The notes beneath the pieces are model-generated. The model saw only the letters and a program-made list of their open reading frames with translations, ran no database searches and was not told where the DNA came from. From Streptomyces sp. NBC_00461 (GTDB taxonomy: Bacteria; Actinomycetota; Actinomycetes; Streptomycetales; Streptomycetaceae), in NCBI RefSeq assembly GCF_036013935.1, contig NZ_CP107902.1:10139001-10203000 (forward strand): DNA of 64,000 nucleotides, in the 5' to 3' direction. This document shows, in pieces, positions 8,315-63,639 of the stretch. How positions within the stretch are numbered: position 1 is the first letter of the stretch; each line of letters starts with the position of its first letter. The position numbers were made by a program, and so were the translations under genes.

Positions 8315-9459
8315 ATGGGCGCTCCGGCACGTGACCGCTTGGGCGTCACGGATCTGGCCGGCCTGTACGGCCCGGACGCGGTCCGGGACACACCAGCCGC
8401 AGAGCTCCCCGCTCTGGCCGCGCGGATCCGCCGGTTTCTGATCGAGAAGGTGTGTGCGTCGGGCGGGCATCTGGGCCCGAACTGGGGGTGGTGGAGCTGA
8501 CCCTCGCCCTGCACCGGGTGTTCGACGCGCCCCGGGACACGCTCGTCTTCGATACCGGGCACCAGGCGTACGTACACAAGCTGCCGACCGGCCGCGCCAA
8601 GGAGTTCGACGGTTTACGCCGGTCTGGCGGGCTATCCGGATCCCCGTCCCGAAGTGAATCGGTGCATGACCTGGTGGAGAACTCCCATGCCTCCACCGCC
8701 CTTTCCTACGCCGACGGCCTGGCCAAGGCGCGCGCCCTGAACGGCCAGAGGGAGCGGGCGGTCGTGGCGGTCATCGGCGATGGGGCGATGACCGGCGGCA
8801 TGGTGTGGGAGGCACTGAACAACATCGGCGGCGCTCCCGACCGGCCGGTGATCGTGGTCCTCAACGACAACGGCTGTTCCTACGCCCCCACCACCGGGGC
8901 CCTGGCCCAGCACCTCACCGCCCTGAAGCAGAGCGGAGGAGCCGAGGCGTGCCAGAACCTGTTCACCGAGCTCGGCTTCACCTACTTCGGGCCCATCGAC
9001 GGGCACAACACCAGCCAGATCGAGGCCGTTCTGCGGCGGGCGCGCGCCATGCGCCGTCACGTGGTGGTGCATGTGATGACCGTCAAGGGCAAGGGCTACG
9101 ATCCGGCCGAGCACGATGAGGCGGACTGCCTGCACGGGGTGGGCACCGTCGATCCGGCCACCGGTCGCCCCGCCGCCCTGAGTTCCGCCGAGCCACGGTC
9201 GTGGACGAGTGTGTTCGGCGAGGCTCTCGTGGAGGCGGCGGCCGAGCGTGAGGAAATCGTCGCGATCACCGCTGCGATGCTGCGGCCCACCGGCCTGCAC
9301 CCGATGGCCGAACGCTTCCCCGACCGGGTCTTCGATGTCGGCATCGCCGAACAGCACGCGGTCACCTCCGCGGCCGGTCTGGCGATGGGCGGCTTCCACC
9401 CCCGCTTCGCCTTACCCCGGCAACTGACCGCCCCCGACGGCCAGACGGGCACCACGTGA
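8315..9459 (+). pseudogene. dxs: 1-deoxy-D-xylulose-5-phosphate synthase, frameshifted and C-terminally truncated
   Basis: The start at ATG 8315 has GGGAGG six bases upstream. After SGGHLGPN (near 8480) one base is missing compared with the usual GGHLGPNLGVVELT, so the first frame ends at 8500. The rest is in another frame: [40 protein letters not shown] (thiamine diphosphate site), YFGPIDGHN and [20 protein letters not shown] (catalytic Glu). It stops after [11 protein letters not shown], about 60 percent of the normal 640 residues, so most of the second transketolase domain and the C-terminal domain are gone. DXS makes the first MEP-pathway intermediate from pyruvate and glyceraldehyde 3-phosphate. 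Its end overlaps the GTG of the next gene, showing the operon join was kept. As written it should be inactive. Confidence 0.85.
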
Positions 9460-10601
9460 ACGGCCGGGACAAGGCCGAAGAGGCAATCGAGCGGGGGCTG
9501 AGCTACCTCTCCCACCAGGTCGAAGGCAGGGGTATGCCGGCTGCCCAGCTTGCCACCGACCGTCTCTTTCATCATTGCTGCTCAGGCACCGAGGCCCGCG
9601 CGCGCGTGCTGCGACAGTTCGGCATCGACCTCGGGTTCAATCCGGCAGACGAGGCGTTCTCGGCCATGCTCGCCTTGTCAGTGCTGCCGGCACCTTGCCT
9701 GAGTCCCACGGCTGGTGCTGCGCTGGTCCGGCAGGTCGACAGCAGCCGCTGGCAGCACAGGTTCCGGTTCTTCCCGGCCGTCGGCCAATTCGCCGCCGAT
9801 ACCGACTGTACGGCTCACGCCGCCAGCGGCCTGTCCGCGCATGGCGCCATGCCCCGGCACAGGCTGCATGCCGTTGTGCGGGAACTGGGCGACGCAGCCG
9901 CCCCGCCCGCAACGGGATCCACCGAAAGGGGCCGTCGCCCCGGCCTGCATCCCGGGGTTGTGATGGTCTACTGGGACGATGGGGCCGAGCCGGGCGCCAC
10001 ACCCAGGGGACGCAAGCACGACCCCGTCGTCTGCGCCAATGCCCTGCACACCATGAGCCTGGCCACACCATCAGCGCTCACCGAGAATTGCCACCGGACC
10101 ATGGCAGCCACCCTGGACTACGTCAGAGAGCATCTCGACTCCGGACGCTACCGGCACGGAACGCGCTACTACCCCTCACCCGACGCCTTCCTCCACGCGG
10201 CATCGCGCCTGTGCCTGCACACCACCGCACACATCGCCCCACTCACCGACGCCTTGCGGACCGCCCTCGTCCAGCGTGAGGCATACCTCACCACCCAGGA
10301 GGCAGCGGATGATCCACTCCAGTTGGCCCTGCGAACCATCGCGGCCAACAACCTTGCCCACACACACGCACAAGACGAACGGCGCGCCGCTCTCGTACGC
10401 CACCAACGACCCGATGGCTCCTGGCCCGCCCGCCCCTACTACCGCCTCGGTCGTGTGCCCCTGTACTTCGGCTCGCCACAGCTGACCACTCTCTTCGCCC
10501 TCGCAGCCCTGCACCCCCACAACCCACCACGCCGTGCCGCCGCCCTTCCACACACCGGCCAGACCAGTAAGGCACTGACACAATCTGAGGAGCCGCGATG
10601 A
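9456..10601 (+). CDS. Squalene-cyclase-like (class II terpene cyclase fold) protein with a DTDC motif
   Basis: This is a 381-residue protein starting at GTG 9456, which overlaps the end of the dxs remnant. The sequence resembles the alpha-alpha barrel of prenyltransferase/squalene-oxidase-repeat proteins: [13 protein letters not shown] is barrel-like, and the C-terminus carries a typical QW-like repeat, [18 protein letters not shown] followed by [18 protein letters not shown]. Residues 115-119 read DTDCT at the position where class II cyclases have the proton-donating DXDD motif, so the last Asp is Cys. A second acidic patch, [10 protein letters not shown], lies near residue 170. It is shorter than two-domain class II cyclases. 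It ends by overlapping the next gene (ATGA type). It may be a cyclase acting by protonation or a partner of the class I synthase. The activity is not established. Confidence 0.6.
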
Positions 10602-11494
10602 GTACCGATCTGCTCGCCCCGTACCGCATGATCAATCAGCGGCACCGTGACCTCACTCGGGAACTGCTCGCCTGGTCCCTCCGGCTGTGCTCTTGCGGGC
10701 AAGGCGCCGCCTGGCATGCCCAGACGGCCTACGTTGCGGCCACCTTCGAGACTTGTGGCGCACCATCCGATGCGACCCTGGACGAGAGCCTGCTCGGCGG
10801 GAAGTACATCGTCTTCTTCCTGTGCCTGGATGACGGTCCGACGGACCAACTGGCCAATCTGGAGCAGGAGCTGCGCAGTGGTCGCCCGGCGGCGAGTGGT
10901 GAGTGCGGCGTCCTGTGTCATGCGCTGCTGGACGAGATGAACAAGCGGGCCCTGGACACCCAGCAGTTCACGACTGAGCTTGCGGACTTCTGCTCCGCCA
11001 TGGCCACGGAAGCCCAGCACGATGTCCGCACCATGACCGAGGAGCAATTCCATGCCCTGCGGCGGCAGACCATCGGCAACCAGCCGTACATCACCTGCTG
11101 GCGGGCTATCCGCGGCTTGCCCGTTCCCACCCCCGGGTCCGAAGCACAGGAGTTCAACGAGCTCGCGGTGGAGGCGGTCTACCTGGTCAACGATCTGGCG
11201 TCGATCACCAAGGATGAGGAGGAAGTACTGAAAGGAGCCGCTAACGCCTACGTGACATCCAACTGGGTCCTCTTCCACGCCCGGTCTCCAGGCGAACTGC
11301 ATACCGCAATTGACACGGCCATCACGCGATACAGCCGCATCGTCGACACATTCGTCCACGCACCCCAAACGCCATTCGCATCCCTCTTGTCCAGCATCGT
11401 GGACGGCAACCTGGACGCACACCTCAGTCTGACCAGCATGCGCTACCCCGGATCGGCGCAAATCTTACGCGTACTCCCACATATCGGATCCTGA
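10598..11494 (+). CDS. Class I terpene synthase
   Basis: This is a 298-residue protein starting at ATG 10598, overlapping the upstream stop. It has the single alpha-domain layout of bacterial terpene synthases. The acidic motif is FLCLDDGPTD (D78, D79, D83). An Arg-containing block, LRRQTIGNQP (residues 154-163), sits where the pyrophosphate sensor is found. The NSE-type motif is VNDLASITKDEE (N198, S202, and D206 or E207 for the third ligand). These residues bind Mg2+ and the diphosphate of the substrate and start cyclisation. It is slightly shorter than most family members. Genomic pairing with a class-II-like protein suggests a two-step cyclisation, possibly of geranylgeranyl diphosphate; substrate and product cannot be read from sequence. 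Confidence 0.8.
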   Translation: MSTDLLAPYRMINQRHRDLTRELLAWSLRLCSCGQGAAWHAQTAYVAATFETCGAPSDATLDESLLGGKYIVFFLCLDDGPTDQLANLEQELRSGRPAASGECGVLCHALLDEMNKRALDTQQFTTELADFCSAMATEAQHDVRTMTEEQFHALRRQTIGNQPYITCWRAIRGLPVPTPGSEAQEFNELAVEAVYLVNDLASITKDEEEVLKGAANAYVTSNWVLFHARSPGELHTAIDTAITRYSRIVDTFVHAPQTPFASLLSSIVDGNLDAHLSLTSMRYPGSAQILRVLPHIGS

Positions 11495-33491: not shown

Positions 33492-34568
33492 GTGACGTCG
33501 GGTGTGATCGACGCGCGAGCTATCGATCTGCCTGCGGTGAAGTGCCAAGTTGATGCGGTTCTTGAGAACTTCTTGGCCGAGAAGGCTCGTGCGGGGGCTG
33601 GCCGGGGGCATCCGCCGGAGGTGGTGCAGACCGTACGCGACTTCCTGACAGCTGGCGGGAAACGGATCCGGGCGCTTTTGTGCGTAGTGGGCTGGCATGC
33701 CGCCGGTGGCCGTGGTGATGCGGCGTCGGCGGTGCGGGTGGCGGCGTCGCTGGAGTTGTTCGTGGCCTTCGCGCTCATCCACGACGACATCATGGACGAC
33801 TCGGTCAGTCGCCGCGGTCGGCCCGCGGTCCATCGTGTGATGCGTGCCCGGCTGGGAGCTGGCGAGCGGGCCGAGCGGCTGGGTGCGGGCGGCGCGTTGC
33901 TGGTGGGCAACCTGGCCCTGATGTGGGCGCAGGAGCTGCTGCACACTGCCCCGATCGAGTCCGGCCGGCAGCGGCTGGTCCATGGGCTGTATGACGCGAT
34001 GCTGGAAGAGGTGATGTACGGGCAGTACCTGGACGTCATGGGCACGGGCCGTGGCGCCGATGACGTCGAGGCGGCCTTGCGGATCATCCGGTACAAGACC
34101 GCCACGGCAACCATCGAGCGGCCGCTGCAATTGGGGGCTGCGGTCGCCGGGGCCGATGGGGCCACGATGGAGGTTTTCACCGGGCTGGGCTTGCCGCTGG
34201 GGGAGGCGTTCCAGCTGCGGGATGACCTGCTGGACGTATTCGGCAGCCCGGACGGCGCGTGCGCTCCGGGCCTGAGCGACCTGCGGGAGGGCAAGCGGAC
34301 CGTTCTGCTGGCCCTGGGCCTGCAGAAGGCTGACTTGGTCCAGCGGGAGCGGCTTGGCCGGCTGGTGGGCCGGGCCGCCCTGGAGGAGCGCGAAGCCGAG
34401 GAGATCCGGGGCATCCTGCTCGCGACAGGGGCACGCAAGGAGACCGAGCGGATGATTACTTCCCGCTACGACCACGTCTTGCGCGTCCTGGACGGGGCCG
34501 GCTTCCCGCCGTCTGCGGATCGTGCTCTGCGTGGGCTGGCGGTCAAGGCCACCCAGTACACGTCCTGA
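33492..34568 (+). CDS. Polyprenyl (probably geranylgeranyl) diphosphate synthase 1
   Basis: This is a 358-residue protein starting at GTG 33492, with GGGGAG nine bases upstream. All trans-prenyltransferase motifs are present: TAGGKRIRALLC (substrate-binding Lys/Arg), the first aspartate-rich motif LIHDDIMDDSVSRRGRP (D98, D99, D102, D103), KTATATIERPLQLG, and the second motif FQLRDDLLDVFG (D244, D245, D248). It condenses isopentenyl diphosphate with an allylic diphosphate in the cytosol. Chain length is set by residues before the first motif (LELFVAFAL). The Phe/Ala pattern is compatible with C20, but this is inference. It is followed 89 bases later by a second synthase in the same direction. 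Confidence 0.9.
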   Translation: MTSGVIDARAIDLPAVKCQVDAVLENFLAEKARAGAGRGHPPEVVQTVRDFLTAGGKRIRALLCVVGWHAAGGRGDAASAVRVAASLELFVAFALIHDDIMDDSVSRRGRPAVHRVMRARLGAGERAERLGAGGALLVGNLALMWAQELLHTAPIESGRQRLVHGLYDAMLEEVMYGQYLDVMGTGRGADDVEAALRIIRYKTATATIERPLQLGAAVAGADGATMEVFTGLGLPLGEAFQLRDDLLDVFGSPDGACAPGLSDLREGKRTVLLALGLQKADLVQRERLGRLVGRAALEEREAEEIRGILLATGARKETERMITSRYDHVLRVLDGAGFPPSADRALRGLAVKATQYTS

Positions 34569-34657
34569 CCCCTGCGGCCGCGACCCTAGGGCACCAAACG
34601 TCAACCGTGGCGCGTCTACAGCGGTGTCACCGGACCCCCGAGCAGGAAGAACTCGTG

Positions 34658-35728
34658 ATGACCGAGCAGGTTCCCGATCGTGTCGCCGGATATGAGCGCC
34701 GGTTCAACACGCTCTTCGAGGAGTACTTCCACGCGTTGAGCGCCGGGCTGGATGCGCCGTCGTTCAGCCGTTTCACTCCGGAGTGCCTGCGGTTGCTGCG
34801 GGAGTTGTCCTTGCGGGGCGGGAAGCGGATGCGGGTCGTTTTGCTGCATGAGGCGGCGCGTCTGGTGACGGACGAGCCGGTCGAGGGGCTGGAGGCTGCG
34901 GCGCTGAGTATCGAGCTGCTGCAGACCCACGGCCTGGTGCACGACGATCTCATCGACGACAGCCCCACCCGCCGCGGCGGCCCGTCCACCTACTACGCCT
35001 ACCGTGAGCGGTTTCCCGGCCATCCGCAGGCGGCCCTTGGTCTGACCGTGCTCGCGGGGGACCTCGCCCTCGCCCTGTCGCTGCAGGTGCTGCTGGAGGC
35101 GAAAGTGCCTGTGGCGGTGCGGCAGGCCATGGTCGAGGTGCAGACGCGGGCGGCGGCCGACACGTTCGTGGGCCAGATCGTCGACCTGGAACGCGACTTC
35201 GCCGCCGCGCCGGGAGAGGAGGTCCTGCACTGCGTGGCCGACTACAAGTCCGCCCGCTACTCGGTTCTCGCGCCAATGCAACTTGGGCTCCTGGCCGCAG
35301 GCGAGAAGCCGGCGCTCTTCGGGAAGGAGCTGCGGGAGTATGCGCGGCTGGTGGGGATCGGCGGGCAGATGCGCGACGACTACCTGGATCTGTTCGGGGA
35401 CGCGTCCGTCATGGGCAAGCCGACCGGCACCGACATCCGCGACGGCAAACACAGCTACACGGTCAGCGCCTTGCTGGCGGCCGTCGACGACGCCGAGCGT
35501 CGCGTGGTGGAGGCCGCGCTCGGCGACGCGTCCTGTCCGGCGGAGACCATCGCCGCCGTCCGGGAGATCGGGGAGCACTGTGGTGTGCCGGACAGGATGG
35601 AGGCGGACATGCACCGCTGCGCGGCGCAGGCCACCGAGGTGGCCGCCGGCTGGCGGTCACGGTGGCGGGAAGAGGCGGTCACCTTCTTCGAGCAGGTGCC
35701 GCTGTGGAGCGTCAACCGCACCTGGTGA
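34658..35728 (+). CDS. Polyprenyl diphosphate synthase 2
   Basis: This is a 356-residue protein. ATG 34658 is preferred because AGGAAG lies eight bases upstream; the frame is open to 34607. Motifs: SLRGGKRMRVVLL, first aspartate-rich motif LVHDDLIDDSPTRRGGPS (D96, D97, D100, D101), KSARYSVLAPMQLGL, and second motif GGQMRDDYLDLFGD. The first motif tolerates RRGGPS, where the family has RRGxP. It is diverged from synthase 1 (the first-motif flanks differ), so it is not a recent duplicate. Two adjacent synthases may differ in chain length or act as a heteromer. The gene converges on the PAP2 phosphatase gene. Confidence 0.9.
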   Translation: MTEQVPDRVAGYERRFNTLFEEYFHALSAGLDAPSFSRFTPECLRLLRELSLRGGKRMRVVLLHEAARLVTDEPVEGLEAAALSIELLQTHGLVHDDLIDDSPTRRGGPSTYYAYRERFPGHPQAALGLTVLAGDLALALSLQVLLEAKVPVAVRQAMVEVQTRAAADTFVGQIVDLERDFAAAPGEEVLHCVADYKSARYSVLAPMQLGLLAAGEKPALFGKELREYARLVGIGGQMRDDYLDLFGDASVMGKPTGTDIRDGKHSYTVSALLAAVDDAERRVVEAALGDASCPAETIAAVREIGEHCGVPDRMEADMHRCAAQATEVAAGWRSRWREEAVTFFEQVPLWSVNRTW

Positions 35729-55849: not shown

Positions 55850-56322
55850 CACTGGACACCCTCGACATGATCTGGGAGCACCCTCCGCACAGCATCGAGC
55901 GCAAGCTCCTCATCGCCCGCGACTACGTCACCCGCCACGGACACCTCGCCCCCCGGTGGGCCGAACACCACCAAGGCCTGCACCTGGGCCGCTGGCTCGC
56001 CGAGCGCCGAAAGGATGCCAACACCCGCCGCCTGCCCCACTGCTACCAACGGGCCCTGAACGAGATCTACCCCTGGTGGAACGCCAAAGGCAAGGCCGAA
56101 TGGAAGCGCACCTACGCCTGCGCCCGCGCCGCCGCGCGCGACAACACCCTGATCTTCCCCAGCCCGCACCAACTCACCGGTACCGTCCCTCCGCTCACCC
56201 AATGGCTGACCCAGCAGATCGACAACCTCGACAGACTTGAGCCCTGCCAGCACCACCTCCTGGGCGACCTCCCCATGGGCCTTGACCCCGGATTTTGGAC
56301 GCCGGAGACACTTGGATCTTGA
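55850..56322 (+). pseudogene. Helicase-associated (HA) domain fragment
   Basis: The frame reads LDMIWEHPPHSIERKLLIAR, YVTRHGHLAPRWAEHHQGLH, LGRWLAERRKDANTRRLPHC, then EIYPWWN and a tail to TGA 56322. A repeat with 'RxYxxxHGHL..p......LG.WL..rR' and a trailing aromatic is the helicase-associated domain found at the C-terminus of large Streptomyces helicases. The helicase part is missing. The end of the frame runs into the left end of an IS3 element, so the original stop is also lost. Confidence 0.55.
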
Positions 56323-56351
56323 TGGTCCGGGTGGTCAGGAGTCCTGCACAG

Positions 56352-56663
56352 ATGGCAATGAAGCACTATCCGTCGGTGTTCAAGGCGGACGCGGTCGCGC
56401 TGTACCGGTCGAGGCCGGGAGCGACGATCAAGTCGGTCGCCGAGGACCTTGGGGTCAACACCGAGACCTTGCGGAACTGGATCCGGGCCGACGACGGCCG
56501 GCGCCAGGGTGCCCACTCGACGCCTCCGGCGGCGTCGGCCCAGGCCCGGAACCCGGTGGAGGCCGAACTCGCCGCCGCGCGGAAGCGGATCCGCGAGCTG
56601 GAGGAAGAACGCGACATCCTCCGCAAGGCGGCCCGGTATTTCGCCGGGGAGACGCGCTGGTGA
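56352..56663 (+). CDS. IS3-family OrfA
   Basis: This is a 103-residue protein starting at ATG 56352. Its helix-turn-helix is YPSVFKADAVALYRSRPGAT, IKSVAEDLGVNTETLRNWIR, followed by a leucine zipper (NPVEAELAAARKRIRELEEE and RDILRKAARYFAGETRW). It binds the IS ends. Its stop overlaps the GTG of OrfB. A closely related OrfA is at 63640. The element is truncated in OrfB, so OrfA is probably idle. Confidence 0.85.
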   Translation: MAMKHYPSVFKADAVALYRSRPGATIKSVAEDLGVNTETLRNWIRADDGRRQGAHSTPPAASAQARNPVEAELAAARKRIRELEEERDILRKAARYFAGETRW

Positions 56664-57301
56664 CCCGCTTCCAGTTCGTTGCCGATCACCAGCGCCGTCA
56701 CGGCGTGAAGCGGCTGTGCGCCATCCTCGGGATCGCCCGTTCCAGCTTCTACTACTGGCGCCGCACCGCACCCAAGCGGGCCGCTCGCCAGGCTGCGGAC
56801 GCCCAACTCGCGGCCCGGATACGTCAAGTGCACCGGGACTCGGACGGTACCTACGGCGTCCCGCGGATCACTGCCGAACTCCGCGACGACGGCCGGGCGG
56901 TGAACCACAAGCGCGTCGCCCGTGTCATGCGGACCATCGGGCTCACCGGAGTTCGCCTGCGCCGCAGGCATCGCATGACGGTCCCGGCCCCGTCCGCGGC
57001 CAAGGCCCCCGACCTGATCGGCCGCGACTTCACCGCGGCGGCGCCGAACACCAAGTACGTCGGTGACATCACCTACTTGTCGACGGACCAGGACCGCATC
57101 CGGCACCTGACCGTCGCCCTGCCGCCCCACTACGCCGCCCGCCTCTTCGACGCCCAGGAAGCCGGTGCCACCGAGCAGCAGCTGAACGAGATCGCCGCCG
57201 AAGCCCTCAAGGAGGTGTACTTCCAGGACAACGGCCGCCGCGCTGGACGTCTGGAGGAAGTGCGCTTCACCGACATCGAGCACCTGGAGTTCGACCTGTA
57301 G
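56660..57301 (+). pseudogene. IS3-family OrfB, cut and fused to another coding sequence
   Basis: GTG 56660 overlaps the OrfA stop. The first 140 residues are typical OrfB: TRFQFVADHQRRHGVKRLCA, FYYWRRTAPKRAARQAADAQ, YGVPRITAELRDDGRAVNHK, RVARVMRTIGLTGVRLRRRH and TKYVGDITYL with the first catalytic Asp. From about 57080 the frame changes to SSTDQDRIRHLTVALPPHYA-like sequence and then RLFDAQEAGATEQQLNEIAA, EALKEVYF and FTDIEHLEFDL, which is not OrfB. The second part could be a small host gene that originally started at the TTG near 57078. The remaining DDE residues are gone. Confidence 0.7.
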
Positions 57302-57829: not shown

Positions 57830-58192
57830 ATGACCGAAAATAACAGTGCGCAGCAGGGCGGCGTGTTCCGTCGCGCTGGCAGGTGGTCCACGGCGTCGGC
57901 CGTGGTGATCACCGAGGTCGCGCAGCACTACGCGGTTCCCGGGTCCGCGCTGGAGACGGTCGTCCATCACGCGCACACCGGCGCGGTCTGGGGGTTGGGC
58001 TTCCAACTCGCAGCCATGCTGGGTACAGCGGTGTACAAGGCCCTGCCGTCCGACGGCTCGTTCACCGTGTCGTGGCGCGTCAACAACAGGGGTGACGGTG
58101 ACGCTTCGACGAAGGCAGACACCGTCCCCCCGGCGGCGCAGGTAGCGTGCGCGACGGAGACGGTTCCCGAGATCGAGAAGCATGGCGTCTGA
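57830..58192 (+). CDS. Conserved hypothetical protein, 120 residues, in operon with the sigma-like gene
   Basis: Starts at ATG 57830; GTGAGG lies 11 bases upstream, slightly far. The sequence TENNSAQQGGVFRRAGRWST and AVVITEVAQHYAVPGSALET has no domain I recognise. Around residues 50-70 there is a mildly hydrophobic stretch (HTGAVWGLGFQLAAMLGTAV) that could be a buried or membrane helix. The C-terminal part is Thr/Ala-rich. Its stop overlaps the start of the double-sigma gene by 11 bases, so the two are translated together, and a regulatory role such as a sigma partner is possible. Confidence 0.55.
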   Translation: MTENNSAQQGGVFRRAGRWSTASAVVITEVAQHYAVPGSALETVVHHAHTGAVWGLGFQLAAMLGTAVYKALPSDGSFTVSWRVNNRGDGDASTKADTVPPAAQVACATETVPEIEKHGV

Positions 58193-59279
58193 GGACTTGG
58201 ACGCTCGCCACGGGACCCCGCCGTCAGGTGGGGCCCCGTGGTCGGAGTTCGAGCAGCTCTACCGCGCCAACCATGGCAAGCTGACCGCCTATGTGACACG
58301 GCGGGGCCTTTCGCCAGCGGACGCCAGCGACATCGTGTCGGTGTCGTTCGCGGACCTGTGGAAGTCCTGGCAGAAGAGGGAGCGCCCGCAGGATCCGACG
58401 CCCTACCTATACAAGATCGTGCAGATGCGGACGATCGATCATAGGAGGCGGGAAAGGCAAGCGGCCCGGGCCGTGGACTTCAACGCATCAGACGCCGAGA
58501 CAGACGCTGTGGGACCTATTGAGGACGTCGCCGCTTCGGTCGAGCCGGAGATGGGATACCTGCAGGCCATTGCGACGCTACCGGAGCGCCAGCGTGCGGT
58601 TCTCACCCTCCATGGGATCGGGCTGGAGGACACCGAGATTGCGGCCGCAGTCGGCCATTCGGCAGACCGTTCACGACCGCCTGGTATGGCTTCGGCGCAC
58701 GCTCCAGAGTCGCCGACCGCCGAGGTTCACGCAAACCGCGGCGATGCCCACGAAGCAGCCCCGCCTCCCCAGGACGGCGCGGAGCTGCCGCCAGACTTCG
58801 AGGCCTTCTACCTTGGCCACCAGGAGATATTCCACGAATATGCGGAGGCTCACCTCGGTAGCCGCGCGACCGCCGAAGAAGTTGTGCACACGGCGTTTGT
58901 GAAGCTACTCGCCGACTGGACCGAACTGCTGCGCTCGGAGAATCTCGAACAAGGCGCATGGGCGATCGTACGGCGCACGGTGCACGACCGTCTGAAGCTA
59001 GAGAGTCGGACTACGGCATTCGCCATAAAGGAGCAAATCGCCCAGGCCCTGGTGGCCACCCGGGGCCAGCTACAGATAAGCGGATCCGTGTCTGGTCTGT
59101 ACGAGGCGATTGCGGAACTACCCGACCGACAGTTCGACGCGATCGTGCTGCGCTACGTGCTCGGCTACCCCACCTCCAAAGTCGCCTGGTACATGGGTGT
59201 TGATGAGCGAACTGTCGGATATCACCTGCGCCGCGGTAAGGCGCGCTTGCGCCTCACACTTGACATGCCTGGCCCGTAA
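58182..59279 (+). CDS. Tandem protein with two ECF-sigma-like modules
   Basis: This is a 365-residue protein starting at ATG 58182. Module one has region 2 (EFEQLYRANHGKLTAYVTRR, DIVSVSFADLWKSWQ, YLYKIVQMRTIDHRRRERQA) and the beginning of region 4 (LPERQRAVLTLHGIGLEDTE, IAAAVGHS). Its recognition helix is out of frame: one base away the DNA reads QTVHDRLVWLRRTLQSRR (58661-58714). After a 30-residue linker, module two has region 2 (FEAFYLGHQEIFHEYAEAHL, TAEEVVHTAFVKLLADW, WAIVRRTVHDRLKLESRT) and a full region 4 (LPDRQFDAIVLRYVLGYPTS, VAWYMGVDERTVGYHLRRGK). It may be a natural fusion or two genes joined by indels. It lies upstream of the terpene fusion gene. Confidence 0.65.
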   Translation: MASEDLDARHGTPPSGGAPWSEFEQLYRANHGKLTAYVTRRGLSPADASDIVSVSFADLWKSWQKRERPQDPTPYLYKIVQMRTIDHRRRERQAARAVDFNASDAETDAVGPIEDVAASVEPEMGYLQAIATLPERQRAVLTLHGIGLEDTEIAAAVGHSADRSRPPGMASAHAPESPTAEVHANRGDAHEAAPPPQDGAELPPDFEAFYLGHQEIFHEYAEAHLGSRATAEEVVHTAFVKLLADWTELLRSENLEQGAWAIVRRTVHDRLKLESRTTAFAIKEQIAQALVATRGQLQISGSVSGLYEAIAELPDRQFDAIVLRYVLGYPTSKVAWYMGVDERTVGYHLRRGKARLRLTLDMPGP

Positions 59280-59816
59280 AGGAAACCAAAGGCCAAAGGC
59301 TCACGCCGACGTCGTCGTCGCGAGACGGCCGTCGGCCTGCTGGCCGGCCAGGGCCCCCGCGCGCCACGGGAAGTGGTGCCTGACGTCTCGTCGGCGACTC
59401 GCGGCCGCTGCCCAACATCCCACCGGACTGGCGGACCCAAGCCGCTGCGCCCGCTACGCCCATCGTTCGAGGCTTGCGACTCCCCTTCTCCGGCACCGAG
59501 TTCGATGTCACCAGCAGGGACTTCGAGATCCGCGGCTCACAGGACAGCAGCGGGTTCCACGATCTCTTCAGTGGAGGCGTGTTCGTAGAGTCGGTCGAGG
59601 TGACCGACACCAGCGCGAACGCGCCCCACGCAGAGCAGACAGATCATGCGATTAGGTGGTTTAGCGCAGGAAAAGACGCGTACTGCGACAGTCTCCTGTT
59701 TCCTGGCGGCGAGGCGTGGAGGTGGTCACAACGGGGAGCGGGTACTGCGACGTTCTGCTGCAGTGTGTCGGCTGTCCTCGCGCTCGGTGAACACCGACCA
59801 GTGTCAGGAGCGCACA
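59280..59816. other. Leader region of the terpene fusion gene
   Basis: The 537 bases hold only weak frames, for example a TTG-started frame at 59474 (RLPFSGTEFDVTSRDFEIRG) of unknown nature that runs into the next gene's start. They probably contain the promoter for the fusion gene. An AGGAG ribosome-binding site lies at 59806-59810. No clear operator or promoter consensus could be picked out by eye. Confidence 0.4.
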
Positions 59817-61883
59817 ATGCCACCTTCTGGGATTGACCCTGCTGCTTTTCCGTGTCTGGAGGCGGACTTGGACAGGGTCCGTGACGCTCTGGGACCGGTG
59901 CGTATCCAGGGCAGGCCCGAACTCGACGCGCTCACACAGGAAGGGCCCGGTACGTCCCGTGGCCTGGTCCGTCCCACCCTTGCTCTGCTCTCGTACTACG
60001 TTCTTACGGATCCTTCGGTGCCGGCCGATGACCGGGCAGTGCTCGCCGCCGCAGCCGTCGAGATGCTGCACCTGGGCGCGCTCTACCACGATGACGTCGT
60101 GGACCACGCTCACGAGCGCCGGGGCCGCCCCAGCGCCAACGCGGTATGGGGTGACCACCTGGCCATCCTCGCCGGGGACTGCGTGATGCTCACCGGCCTG
60201 AACATGCTGGCGCAGCTTGGTCAGCGCGAAGTCGTCGAGGGGACGATGGCGAATGAACGCATGTGCGCCGGCATGGTGATGGAGGCGGCCGACCTGTATG
60301 CGGTCTCGCGCAGCGAGCAGGCCTACCTCGACGCGATTGGGGGCAAGACGGCGCATCTGTTCGCCCTGGCCTGTCGGCTGGGGGCGGTGCAGGCAGACAG
60401 GGACGGCGGCCGGCAGGAGAGCCGAGAGGAGGCGCTGGCCGGGTTCGGCTGGCAGTTCGGGTACGCCTATCAGTTACGCGATGACATTCTCGATCTGACG
60501 TCGACCGTTGAGGAGTTGGGTAAGCCCGTCAACACCGATTTGTCCGAGGGTGTCTACACCCTGCCTGTGATCCGTGCGGTTTCCCGCGACCGCGACCTCG
60601 GCCGCCTTTTGGGCAAGGAGATGACACAGGAGGAAGCCGCACGTGCCCGGGACCTCGTTGTCGCCTCCGGGGCCGTGCAGGAGGCGCAGGCGGTGGCCGA
60701 CGCGTACATGACCGAGGCCGCTGATCGGCTTTCCCACCTTACCGATCACTCTTGTGCGCTCGATGGTCTGACAGCCTACGCTCGGGCCGTACTCGACCGG
60801 CCCACTGCTTCCCGTCCCGCGGTTATCCCCCACCAGGTCCGGCAGGCCCCTCAGCCCCAGAACAGCGCGCACGCTGAGCAGGTCACGAGGCGGCTGAAGG
60901 GCTGGCTCGTGGAGACCGGCATCGCCGCCACCCCAGCCGAGGCTGACCATCACCGGCTGTCGGGGGCTCTGTCGATGATTGAGCGGATCATTCCTCGGGT
61001 GGCGGATGAGGCCGGCAACGCCGACAGCAATGACGATGACCTCTTCGAAAGGAAGCAGACCAGCGCAGCGTTGGGCATGCTGTTCGGTATGTGGGACGAC
61101 CTGTTCGAGGATCCACAGCTGACGGACCCGCGCGCTGTTACCGCGCTGAGGGAGGGATTGGTGGCGACATTGCGCCAGTCCCCGGGCGCACCGTGGACGC
61201 ACGGCGCGATCCCGACGTCCTGGGCGCAGTTGTGGCCGCGCCTGTGCAAAGGCAGGACAGTGCGATGGCAGGAGGCATTGCTCGACAACATCGAGGAATG
61301 GCTCCACGCCTGCGAGCGTGAGGCACGCCACCGCATCAGCGGCTACATCCCCTCACCAGCGGACTGGCTGCCGCTGCGGAGGTCGACCGGTGGCTTCGAG
61401 GTCGGCCTGGCGTGCTCGGAGATCGTGCAGGACCGGGAGATGCCGCCGGCGGTGCGCAGCCACCGCCTGGTCCGACGTCTTGAGGATCTCGGCTTCTTCG
61501 TCGTCTTCGCTGAGAACGACCTGGCGGGCGTGGACCAGGACGAGGCTGACCAGGTCCCCTACAACCTGGTCAGGGCGATCCGTCATGAGATGGGGTGCAG
61601 CCGCGCGGAAGCCATCGAGCGGGTGGAGCGCCAAGTGGCGGAGAAACGTGCCCAATTCAACGCGGTATACAAGTACGTGCCCGTGCTCTTCCGCACGTTG
61701 CCCGGCCTCTCCGGTCAGGGTGACCGGTATGCGGCGATCTACGATATGTTGAAACTGTTTTTCGATCTACGGCAGGGCGAGTCCGAGAGGTACCAGCCGA
61801 AGACCACGGCCGTGGGACCGGACCTGGAGCGTCTGCGTCGTGAGATCAGCCGGCCTGCCGCCCCGGCCCCGTCCACGCGGTAG
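59817..61883 (+). CDS. Bifunctional prenyl diphosphate synthase - class I terpene synthase fusion
   Basis: This is a 688-residue protein starting at ATG 59817 with AGGAG six bases upstream. Residues 1-330 form a trans-prenyltransferase. It has GTSRGLVRPTLALLSYY at the substrate site (in place of GGKR), first motif YHDDVVDHAHERRGRP (D92, D93, D96), GGKTAHLFALACRLG, and second motif YQLRDDILDLTST (D222, D223, D226). A Pro/Gln-rich linker (about 330-355) leads to a class I terpene synthase. That domain has GMWDDLFEDP (D427, D428, D432), RRSTGGFEV (sensor Arg 521/522), ENDLAGVDQDE (N567, Gly571 for the usual Ser, D575) and the C-terminal ERY pair (R658, Y659). It could make a C15-C25 diphosphate and cyclise it in one protein. 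The order differs from fungal fusions, where the cyclase comes first. Confidence 0.88.
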   Translation: MPPSGIDPAAFPCLEADLDRVRDALGPVRIQGRPELDALTQEGPGTSRGLVRPTLALLSYYVLTDPSVPADDRAVLAAAAVEMLHLGALYHDDVVDHAHERRGRPSANAVWGDHLAILAGDCVMLTGLNMLAQLGQREVVEGTMANERMCAGMVMEAADLYAVSRSEQAYLDAIGGKTAHLFALACRLGAVQADRDGGRQESREEALAGFGWQFGYAYQLRDDILDLTSTVEELGKPVNTDLSEGVYTLPVIRAVSRDRDLGRLLGKEMTQEEAARARDLVVASGAVQEAQAVADAYMTEAADRLSHLTDHSCALDGLTAYARAVLDRPTASRPAVIPHQVRQAPQPQNSAHAEQVTRRLKGWLVETGIAATPAEADHHRLSGALSMIERIIPRVADEAGNADSNDDDLFERKQTSAALGMLFGMWDDLFEDPQLTDPRAVTALREGLVATLRQSPGAPWTHGAIPTSWAQLWPRLCKGRTVRWQEALLDNIEEWLHACEREARHRISGYIPSPADWLPLRRSTGGFEVGLACSEIVQDREMPPAVRSHRLVRRLEDLGFFVVFAENDLAGVDQDEADQVPYNLVRAIRHEMGCSRAEAIERVERQVAEKRAQFNAVYKYVPVLFRTLPGLSGQGDRYAAIYDMLKLFFDLRQGESERYQPKTTAVGPDLERLRREISRPAAPAPSTR

Positions 61884-61942: not shown

Positions 61943-62770
61943 TCATCGATTCGCCGCCCTCCCGAACGGCACCGGGCCGTCATCCGCCTGACGGCCGATT
62001 CGCACAGCGGCTGCCAGAGCGGACCGGGTCCGCCGGTAAAAGGCCAGCAGCCCGATGAGGCCGACGGCGGTGAACCAGGCCAGTTGGATGGCGAAGTCCA
62101 CGGCGGACACCGTGGCGGAGAAGCCCGCCGCCGTCGCGGTCTGCATGGCACCGTATGAGGGCAGCCAGCGCACCATGCCGCTGTCCGCCCCGCCACTGGC
62201 GAGGGGATTCTGCAAGCCCAGGTCCACGACGCTGATCATTACAATGGCGAACATGCCCTCCACCTCGCGGCGCAGGAGCGTGCCGAGGGCGACGCCCAGC
62301 GCGCCGTAGGTCATCGCCGTGCCAAACAGCGCCGCGCCGAGCAGCACGGGCTGCCGGGGCGACCAGAAGCAGCAGATGACCGCGGTGGCGTACGAACAGA
62401 CGGCCACCGACGCAATGACCAGGCAGGCGACCTTCGCCAGCCCCAGCGGAACCCGGGGAAACCCGGCCATGGACAGACGGCGGTCGAATGCCCCATTGCT
62501 GAAGGTTGCCGCGAACATCATGAATCCGATGATCAGCGTGACCCCGTTCAGCGCCCCGGTGATCTGGGTGATCTTGTCACCGTCGGCGGTCAACACGTGA
62601 CTGGTGCTGTGCAGCCGGAACTGCACCGGCTCCTTGGTGACAGCCCAGCCCGTCATGATGACCCACACAGGGAGAAACACCGCCACGAGCAGCATGGCGA
62701 ACCGGTTCCTGGCGTGCTCCACCAGGCCATAACGTGTGGCGATCTTGAACAGCCGCAGCCCTCGCCTCAC
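61943..62770 (-). CDS. ABC-2-type transporter permease
   Basis: This is a 275-residue protein starting at GTG 62770, overlapping the ATPase stop. It has six membrane helices: NRFAMLLVAVFLPVWVIMTG; ITGALNGVTLIIGFMMFAAT; KVACLVIASVAVCSYATAVI; LGAALFGTAMTYGALGVALG; EGMFAIVMISVVDLGLQ; and FAIQLAWFTAVGLIGLLAFY. It forms an exporter with the ATPase upstream in the operon. It is convergent with the terpene fusion gene, so co-function (export of the terpenoid or self-protection) is possible but only suggested by position. Confidence 0.85.
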   Translation of the reverse strand: MRRGLRLFKIATRYGLVEHARNRFAMLLVAVFLPVWVIMTGWAVTKEPVQFRLHSTSHVLTADGDKITQITGALNGVTLIIGFMMFAATFSNGAFDRRLSMAGFPRVPLGLAKVACLVIASVAVCSYATAVICCFWSPRQPVLLGAALFGTAMTYGALGVALGTLLRREVEGMFAIVMISVVDLGLQNPLASGGADSGMVRWLPSYGAMQTATAAGFSATVSAVDFAIQLAWFTAVGLIGLLAFYRRTRSALAAAVRIGRQADDGPVPFGRAANR

Positions 62771-63372
62771 CGCACCTCCTCCTGCCGTCCGTGCAGCACA
62801 CCGTCCCGCAACCGCCACACCTGATCGAGCCGATCGGTGTCGTAGGCCAGATGCGAGACGACGAGAACCGATCGGCCGGCCGCACGCAGGTCCCCGACCA
62901 GATCCCAAAAACGCAGGTACGTCTCCCAGTCGAACCCCTGGTACGGCTCATCCAGCAGCAGCACCTGCGGGTCGTGCATCACCGCGAGCGTCAGATTCAG
63001 CTTCTGCCGCGTGCCGCCACTGAGCGTTCCCACCAGGGCCCCGGCGTACTGGGCGAAACCCAGGATCGCCATGACCTCCTCGGCCCGCCGCAGATCCGGA
63101 ACGTCATAAGCCGCAGCGAAGAGCTCTAGATGCTGACGCACCGTGAACACATCGTTCAGCACCACCTGCTGAGGGCAGTACCCGAACCGCCCACCGTGCC
63201 GGACCACGCCCCGCTCCGGCCGGAGCTCCCCCGAAAGGATCTTCAACAGCGTCGACTTGCCCGCCCCGTTCTCGCCGACAATGCCCACCACCGAACCCGC
63301 GGGCAGCGCGACATCGATACCGCGCAATACCTGCCGAACGCCGTAGGAATGATGGACTCCCTCTGCCTCCAT
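62767..63372 (-). CDS. ABC transporter ATP-binding protein
   Basis: This is a 201-residue protein. ATG 63372 is chosen because GGGGGG lies six bases upstream and MEAEGVHHSYGVRQVLRGID is the usual family start; the frame is open further but without support. It has Walker A VGENGAGKST, Q-loop YCPQQVVLNDVFTVRQH, signature LSGGTRQKLNLTLAVM, Walker B VLLLDEPYQGFDW and H-loop VLVVSHLAYDTDRL. It drives the ABC-2 permease encoded next. At 201 residues it is compact, as in drug/lipid exporters of the CcmA type. Confidence 0.88.
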   Translation of the reverse strand: MEAEGVHHSYGVRQVLRGIDVALPAGSVVGIVGENGAGKSTLLKILSGELRPERGVVRHGGRFGYCPQQVVLNDVFTVRQHLELFAAAYDVPDLRRAEEVMAILGFAQYAGALVGTLSGGTRQKLNLTLAVMHDPQVLLLDEPYQGFDWETYLRFWDLVGDLRAAGRSVLVVSHLAYDTDRLDQVWRLRDGVLHGRQEEVR

Positions 63373-63639
63373 CAACGCCCCCCTCTCCCTCACCCCCGAG
63401 GCAGGCCATATGGATGCCCCACAACGGCCAACGAACCAAAGGCCGCATGGAAACGCCACAGCACAGTCGAGCCAGGACAAGCCGTCATCGGGCAGATGCG
63501 TGCGACGACGGGATGGGCGGCACGGAGCGGATTGCCGCCGGAGATCAGGGCGCGCTCACCGGTACTGGGGGCCTCCCCCTGAGTGGTGGACACGCTGATA
63601 CTGGATCTGCTTGATCCGGAGGAAGCGAGAAGACCGCCG

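Follow-up and report, generated by a model that had tools for sequence, protein, structure and literature searches.

In fungal chimeric terpene synthases (PTTS; PaFS, AcOS, EvVS and TvTS/MpMS), a prenyltransferase (PT) and a class I terpene synthase (TS) share one polypeptide. Bacteria also have bifunctional terpene enzymes; geosmin synthase, for instance, has two cyclase-type domains. Two cyclase-type domains are likewise fused in the bacterial class I/class II bifunctional diterpene synthases (available text of PMC11469919). In the fungal enzymes the TS is N-terminal, the PT is C-terminal and, in 2021, the arrangement was called unique to fungi (available text of PMC8307374). A characterised fungal chimera works from IPP and DMAPP, according to the accessible parts of PMC8307374 and PMC7065159. 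The cargo of family 2 encapsulins comprises polyprenyl transferases and terpene cyclases, so that both enzyme types are tied to one bacterial system, but as separate proteins linked to a capsid shell (excerpts of PMC8346489). We found no description of a bacterial fusion between a PT and a terpene cyclase (TC) in the text available for the best-ranked literature matches, which cover few subscription journals. The same is true of the accessible portions of PMC10509563, PMC7192455, PMC12298776, PMC10563020 and PMC10301674.

Our window, meaning the whole stretch of DNA analysed, is 64,000 nucleotides long and derives from Streptomyces sp. NBC_00461. It covers positions 10139001-10203000 of a single 10,374,860-bp contig and contains such a fusion, about 174 kb from the contig end. 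The features of the gene are as follows:

59817 to 61883, plus strand: PT-TC fusion gene, 688 amino acids (frame, Pfam, homologues, family alignment and upstream AGGAG)
59841 to 60800, plus strand: trans-prenyl diphosphate synthase (PT) domain, residues about 9-328
60090 to 60104, plus strand: DDVVD, first Asp-rich motif, residues 92-96 (Asp 92, 93 and 96 in 118/118 relatives)
60480 to 60494, plus strand: DDILD, second Asp-rich motif, residues 222-226 (Asp 222, 223 and 226 in 118/118 relatives)
60801 to 60896, plus strand: linker, residues 329-360, variable, with 330-348 predicted to be disordered (pLDDT below 50 at 330-348; higher omega)
60897 to 61841, plus strand: class I terpene synthase (TC) domain, residues about 361-675

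The original prediction, made from the DNA letters, was of a bacterial protein with the synthase first and the cyclase second. This is borne out. Translation of the open reading frame gives 688 residues with no internal stop codon. Residues 51-273 match PF00348 (E = 1.7e-49; 168.8 bits, cut-off 27) and residues 421-611 match PF19086 (E = 1.2e-31; 110.5 bits, cut-off 23.7). All motifs lie in this one frame and at the predicted positions. These are GTSRGLVRP (45-53), DDVVD and DDILD in the PT, then DDLFED (427-432), RRSTGG (521-526), NDLAGVDQD (567-575) and RY (658-659) in the TC. Note that the frame is open in the 5' direction as far as an ATG at 59646. The start at 59817 is nevertheless supported, as the family consensus starts there and AGGAG lies just 5' of it. 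An AlphaFold model (pLDDT 83.4, pTM 0.78) has two helical domains and a disordered linker. Pairwise comparison with four Streptomyces copies gave omega values of 0.23-0.26 for the PT, 0.23-0.28 for the TC and 0.55-0.66 for the linker. Hence, both domains are constrained and kept, while the linker is freer.

Like the fungal PTTS, the protein joins a PT and a class I TS in one polypeptide. As the original prediction stated, PaFS and AcOS-type enzymes place the cyclase first (available text of PMC8307374), so the order here is reversed. The present fusion is also bacterial, the top-listed relatives of both domains are bacterial, and an ABC transporter pair adjoins the gene. Since TS precedes PT in the PTTS, and PT precedes TC here, we do not count the family among the PTTS. 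Geosmin synthase and the class I/class II diterpene synthases share with it a bacterial source and two functions; only here is a chain-elongating synthase joined to a cyclase. With the encapsulin cargo it shares both enzyme types and, as the top NCBIfam match of its PT, model NF041169 (169.3 bits, far below the cut-off of 450). General inspection of the neighbouring genes revealed no recognisable encapsulin.

A trivial explanation would be that two neighbouring genes were joined, by a sequencing error or a recent accident. Relatives with the same architecture, for which the original prediction proposed a search, bear directly on this; they were found in Nocardia, in Streptomyces, in a third genus (g17) and on one plasmid. 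A search of about 5.8 billion proteins, confined to lengths 0.55-1.75 times that of the query and thus favouring fusions, returned 177 homologues. Both Pfam domains are present in 119 of the 120 matches listed, and the organisms named among these are Nocardia or Streptomyces. At the genome level, full-length matches occur in 3/392 Streptomyces genomes, including our own, and a fourth match covers the PT only. A copy with 90% identity is found on a plasmid of Streptomyces sp. NBC_01483. In Nocardia, the genus of N. testacea, 34/148 sampled genomes have matches at E<=1e-100, and as many as four were seen in a single genome (seven candidates at most were scored per genome). Two of the 50 Nocardia matches listed have a stop codon and two are partial. 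For g17, matches run across both domains in 10/15 genomes, although one of the ten is two pieces of one frame and three end near residue 634. When 394 genomes were sampled evenly across the class, matches at E<=1e-50 came only from our genome and from three of g17. The region does correspond to two frames in Streptomyces sp. ACA25 (L013:9950-12068). However, ACA25 is an exception, also lacks the ABC pair from its 22-kb locus, and looks like a case of decay. Given many independent and unbroken copies, in assemblies from three genera, we rejected the joining artefact, the probability of which is negligible. We conclude that the fusion is no isolated oddity. It is a real, conserved and so far uncharacterised bacterial PT-TC protein family, with members in some Nocardia, a small number of Streptomyces and a third genus.

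The family also has single-domain entries, namely PT-only fragments and about a dozen TC-only proteins. Those of the latter named from Nocardia are P0242, P0244, P0245 and P0251 (252-345 amino acids). TC-only proteins could be split fusions, fragments or true single-domain genes. Among the matches listed, members and fragments are called polyprenyl synthetase, heptaprenyl or geranylgeranyl diphosphate synthase, terpene synthase, or hypothetical protein.

Separate trees of the two domains were also proposed at the outset. The TC tree sampled 26 of the 58 aligned fusions, which form a single clade (SH-aLRT 100) apart from 34 other PF19086 domains, including halves of geosmin-type proteins. The PT tree comprised 24 of the 58 fusions, 52 unfused or presumed unfused synthases and seven sequences from our own genome. 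Here, the fusions group in one clade with P0131, counted among the 52, whose sequence shows it to be part of a fusion gene. Branching next (support 97) is the unfused PT from Streptomyces genome G299, and then come three stand-alone PTs. Both trees split g17 from Nocardia plus Streptomyces. Note that these were quick maximum likelihood searches, with long-branch warnings, of bacterial sequences only. The topologies fit one bacterial fusion event, after which the domains would have been inherited together. Reversal of the domain order, and top relatives that are bacterial, speak against shared ancestry with the fungal fusion and, on these grounds, we infer a probably independent origin. Among 60 PDB matches of the TC at E<=0.01, none is named fusicoccadiene synthase, though several are named only 'terpene synthase'. 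Similarly, no fungal chimeric enzyme is found in the best 50 Foldseek and best 50 VIA-align matches, but these come mostly from the PT domain and prove nothing in this respect.

Phomopsene synthases have been reported from N. testacea and N. rhamnosiphila (available text of PMC7065159 and PMC10301674), and these known enzymes could have been members of the fusion family. Besides its one fusion, each genome has two further PF19086 matches, and one of these lies 2-5 kb from the fusion. In the TC tree, the non-fusion matches of both species fall outside the fusion clade.

Next we consider the residues expected to support catalysis, counted over 118 of the 120 homologues listed (of 177 in all), with two shorter than 600 amino acids excluded. 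By sequence, the TC is a class I bacterial terpene synthase, with a DDxx(x)D motif, an NSE triad, an RY pair and a PF19086 score above the cut-off. Residues D427, D428, D432, R521, N567, D568, D575 and R658 are present in 118/118 relatives. Position 659, of the RY pair, is Tyr in 97/118 and His in 19/118. With nine g17 proteins added, in a 58-row alignment, D432 is replaced by Glu in eight, and R658 is Arg in 55 with three gaps, which stem from three incomplete g17 rows. The remaining listed catalytic residues of both domains are present in 58/58. The triad reads N-D-x-x-G-x-x-x-D and is followed by a Glu in 58/58. Hence, the original prediction was correct that Gly replaces Ser in the triad, but this is not an anomaly; Gly is the commonest residue at position 571 (92/118).

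The PT has the signs of a trans-prenyl diphosphate synthase, with two DDxxD motifs and a PF00348 score above the cut-off. Both Asp-rich motifs, together with R101, R102, K177, T178, Q219, K236 and N239, are invariant in 118/118 relatives. The site that departs from expectation is GGKxxRP. The original prediction noted that GTSRGLVRP replaces GGKRxRP here and took this to indicate altered binding. The departure is real, but is a trait of the whole family, in which the site reads TSR[R/G/S]LVRP. The Lys position is Arg in 105/118 relatives, Gly in eight, including this protein, and Ser in four. Lys itself is absent from our protein and from 118/118 relatives. Fusions from g17 carry variants such as HRHLIRP in the 58-row alignment. 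Even so, a Lys, Arg or His at residues 47-49, and the RP, are kept in 58/58 aligned members. The site is GVPKLVRP or DVPKLVRP in three of the nearest stand-alone PTs, and GGRRRRVRP in the unfused sister PT. Since these are altered too, the loss of Lys may be older than the fusion.

Could the PT be noncatalytic? It would then be degenerate and serve in dimerisation or regulation, and the TC would draw diphosphates from the cell pool. The missing lysine, Gly in our protein and Lys in 0/118 relatives, is consistent with this, as are several other PT-like frames in the same genome. Conversely, none of the 118 relatives has a change in the metal-binding aspartates or in the other substrate-site residues listed above, PT omega equals TC omega, and the basic residue at 47-49 remains in 58/58. 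We consider a noncatalytic PT improbable. Because the altered GGKxxRP is family-wide, and a basic residue is retained, the change alone is no argument for lost activity, and the case for such a loss is weakened. IPP binding may nevertheless be weak, given the Gly in this member. The fusion plausibly makes its own substrate.

If so, the length of that substrate matters. Short-chain prenyl synthases stop the growing chain by means of an aromatic residue near the first Asp-rich motif. In the fusion family, the residues at -5 and -4 before this motif are small (Gly in 117/118; Ser or Ala in 118/118). Hence, the aromatic stop is absent. By fold, the PT best matches two Rv0562 entries, one titled C45 and the other GGPP synthase, along with solanesyl, polyprenyl, heptaprenyl and decaprenyl synthases; further GGPP synthases rank lower among the matches listed. 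NCBIfam scores are 155.8 bits for HepT and 93.8 bits for FPPsyn. Note that all listed synthase models score under their cut-offs, so these models assign no length. We conclude that the PT resembles medium- and long-chain synthases, and the intermediate may be C20 or longer.

For the TC, the closest PDB sequence matches are sesquiterpene synthases, namely pentalenene synthase (the best) and avermitilol synthase, which does not favour a long substrate. Logically, the PT might make FPP and the TC an ordinary sesquiterpene, in effect a pentalenolactone-type pair of FPP synthase and pentalenene synthase fused. Indeed, a Streptomyces plasmid has a pentalenolactone-type cluster (L136) in which a polyprenyl synthetase gene lies right before that for pentalenene synthase, in the same order and on the same strand. 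Hence, such a neighbourhood exists in Streptomyces. By contrast with the fusion, that cluster encodes two separate proteins, alongside oxygenases, and identity is 26.8%. Furthermore, the aromatic residue at -4/-5 is missing from the PT, which matches medium- and long-chain synthases best and scores higher with HepT than with FPPsyn, albeit with both under cut-off. An FPP-based route is unlikely on this evidence, though far from negligible.

We now turn to the transporter genes, a conserved partner of the fusion that is a new observation and absent from the original prediction. They are:

61943 to 62908, minus strand: predicted ABC permease (membrane subunit), facing the fusion in convergent orientation (listed frame, whose true start is probably farther downstream)
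62767 to 63480, minus strand: ABC ATPase, best NCBIfam match DrrA (listed frame, start uncertain)

The ATPase matches PF00005 (E = 4.2e-26) and scores 119.5 bits with TIGR01188, against a cut-off of 312. The permease has no Pfam match, and a g17 homologue matches ABC2_membrane_3 weakly (24.3 bits, below the cut-off of 31.6). The pair is thus a candidate ABC-2 exporter of the DrrAB kind. An ATPase and permease pair adjoins the fusion at 26/28 loci, from three genera (three further loci, L069, L070 and L071, are repeats of L016, L011 and L005 and were counted once). For Streptomyces the count is 5/6, with our locus, L001, L002, L003 and L137 having the pair and L013 lacking it. For Nocardia it is 11/12, the exception being L004, where the contig ends about 2 kb downstream; these 12 are a minority of the Nocardia fusion loci found. 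All ten g17 loci have the pair, with the permease match in two pieces at L010. The layout differs between genera. In g17, ATPase, permease and fusion lie in this order on a single strand; in Nocardia and Streptomyces, the pair and the fusion run towards each other. At three Nocardia loci (L008, L014 and L016), the pair sits between two fusion genes. Terpene synthase genes outside the fusion lie directly beyond the pair in N. testacea (L005:13761-15062) and S. lacrimifluminis (L002:13927-14787).

The same pair is found with unfused enzymes. In G299 (L058:6930-10602), the sister PT is followed by the pair and an MPAB_Lcp gene (rubber-oxygenase-like, PF09995) in an operon-like row, a possible pre-fusion or alternative pathway. 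The permease family occurs in 15/396 genomes of the phylum at E<=1e-8. Away from the fusion, 3/17 loci of the ABC family (L092-L108) adjoin other prenyl-chain enzymes. In our own genome and in G013 this is a fusion of squalene/phytoene synthase and cis-prenyltransferase; in G067 (L094) it is two PT-like genes, one confirmed by Pfam. At the other 14 loci there was no PT or TC profile match and no prenyl enzyme was recognised, with few neighbours (those at L095 and L098) scanned against Pfam. Since the pair lies beside fusions, the unfused sister PT and some other prenyl-chain enzymes, terpenoid-related cargo is likely for the fusion's own pair.

Other features of the window and genome deserve brief mention. 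The squalene/phytoene synthase and cis-prenyltransferase protein of our genome (L093:10778-12610; G000:C1 about 142780-144609, at the other chromosome end) has 610 amino acids, matches PF00494 and PF01255, and has a paralogous copy of this ABC pair beside it. Matches across both of its domains occur in 10/101 sampled Streptomyces genomes. In the window, positions 33492-35728 (plus strand) hold two polyprenyl synthetase genes in tandem, of 358 and 373 amino acids, reminiscent of the two PT-like genes at L094. Positions 8452-11494 (plus strand) hold three frames with 4-base overlaps. The first is DXP-synthase-like (335 amino acids), the second has no Pfam match (381 amino acids) and the third is weakly terpene-synthase-like (298 amino acids; PF19086, 34.2 bits). 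A 365-amino acid frame at 58182-59279 (plus strand) matches ECF sigma-factor families twice (about residues 22-160 and 205-360), as if two were fused. Finally, at 56237-57301 (plus strand), an IS3-type transposase region, below the model cut-off, is joined to the C-terminal part of the telomere protein Tpg, perhaps because an element inserted within or close to a tpg gene.

Presence of the pair at 26/28 fusion loci, and beside the unfused sister PT, suggests that the terpene synthase is self-sufficient and has a dedicated exporter. Briefly, the N-terminal PT would add isopentenyl diphosphate to an allylic diphosphate and so build an all-trans polyprenyl diphosphate, the chain of which is most likely C20 or longer. 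From its place on a flexible linker, the class I domain at the C-terminus would ionise and cyclise this product. The adjoining ABC pair would then move, or dispose of, the terpene or a derivative. We judge this self-sufficient, exporter-linked synthase to be probable overall, with the activities, chain length, cyclisation and transport all inferred from sequence, constraint and gene context. Several points count against it. These are the Gly at the GGKxxRP lysine, the sesquiterpene synthase matches of the TC, the PT fold match titled GGPP synthase, the two fusion loci without the pair and the existence of TC-only family proteins. In addition, 14/17 ABC loci away from the fusion, with few neighbours scanned against Pfam, had no recognised prenyl enzyme, which bears on the proposed cargo.

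A bolder version can be proposed, tentatively, and is rather doubtful. The family would be an independent, PT-first and substrate-channelling bacterial invention, in which C25-C35 polyprenyl diphosphates are cyclised, by class I chemistry, to sester-, non-squalene tri- or sesquarterpenes. The ABC exporter would have co-evolved and would also serve prenyl-chain enzymes that are unfused or fused in other ways.

A bacterial family with the reverse domain order would be a convergent solution to chimeric terpene synthesis. As such, it would allow an independent test of whether any gain in flux from precursor to cyclised product comes from fusing the domains at all or from one particular geometry. 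The family also offers compact, single-gene terpene synthases for work in E. coli, with multiple copies per genome in some Nocardia, and a candidate family of terpenoid transporters.
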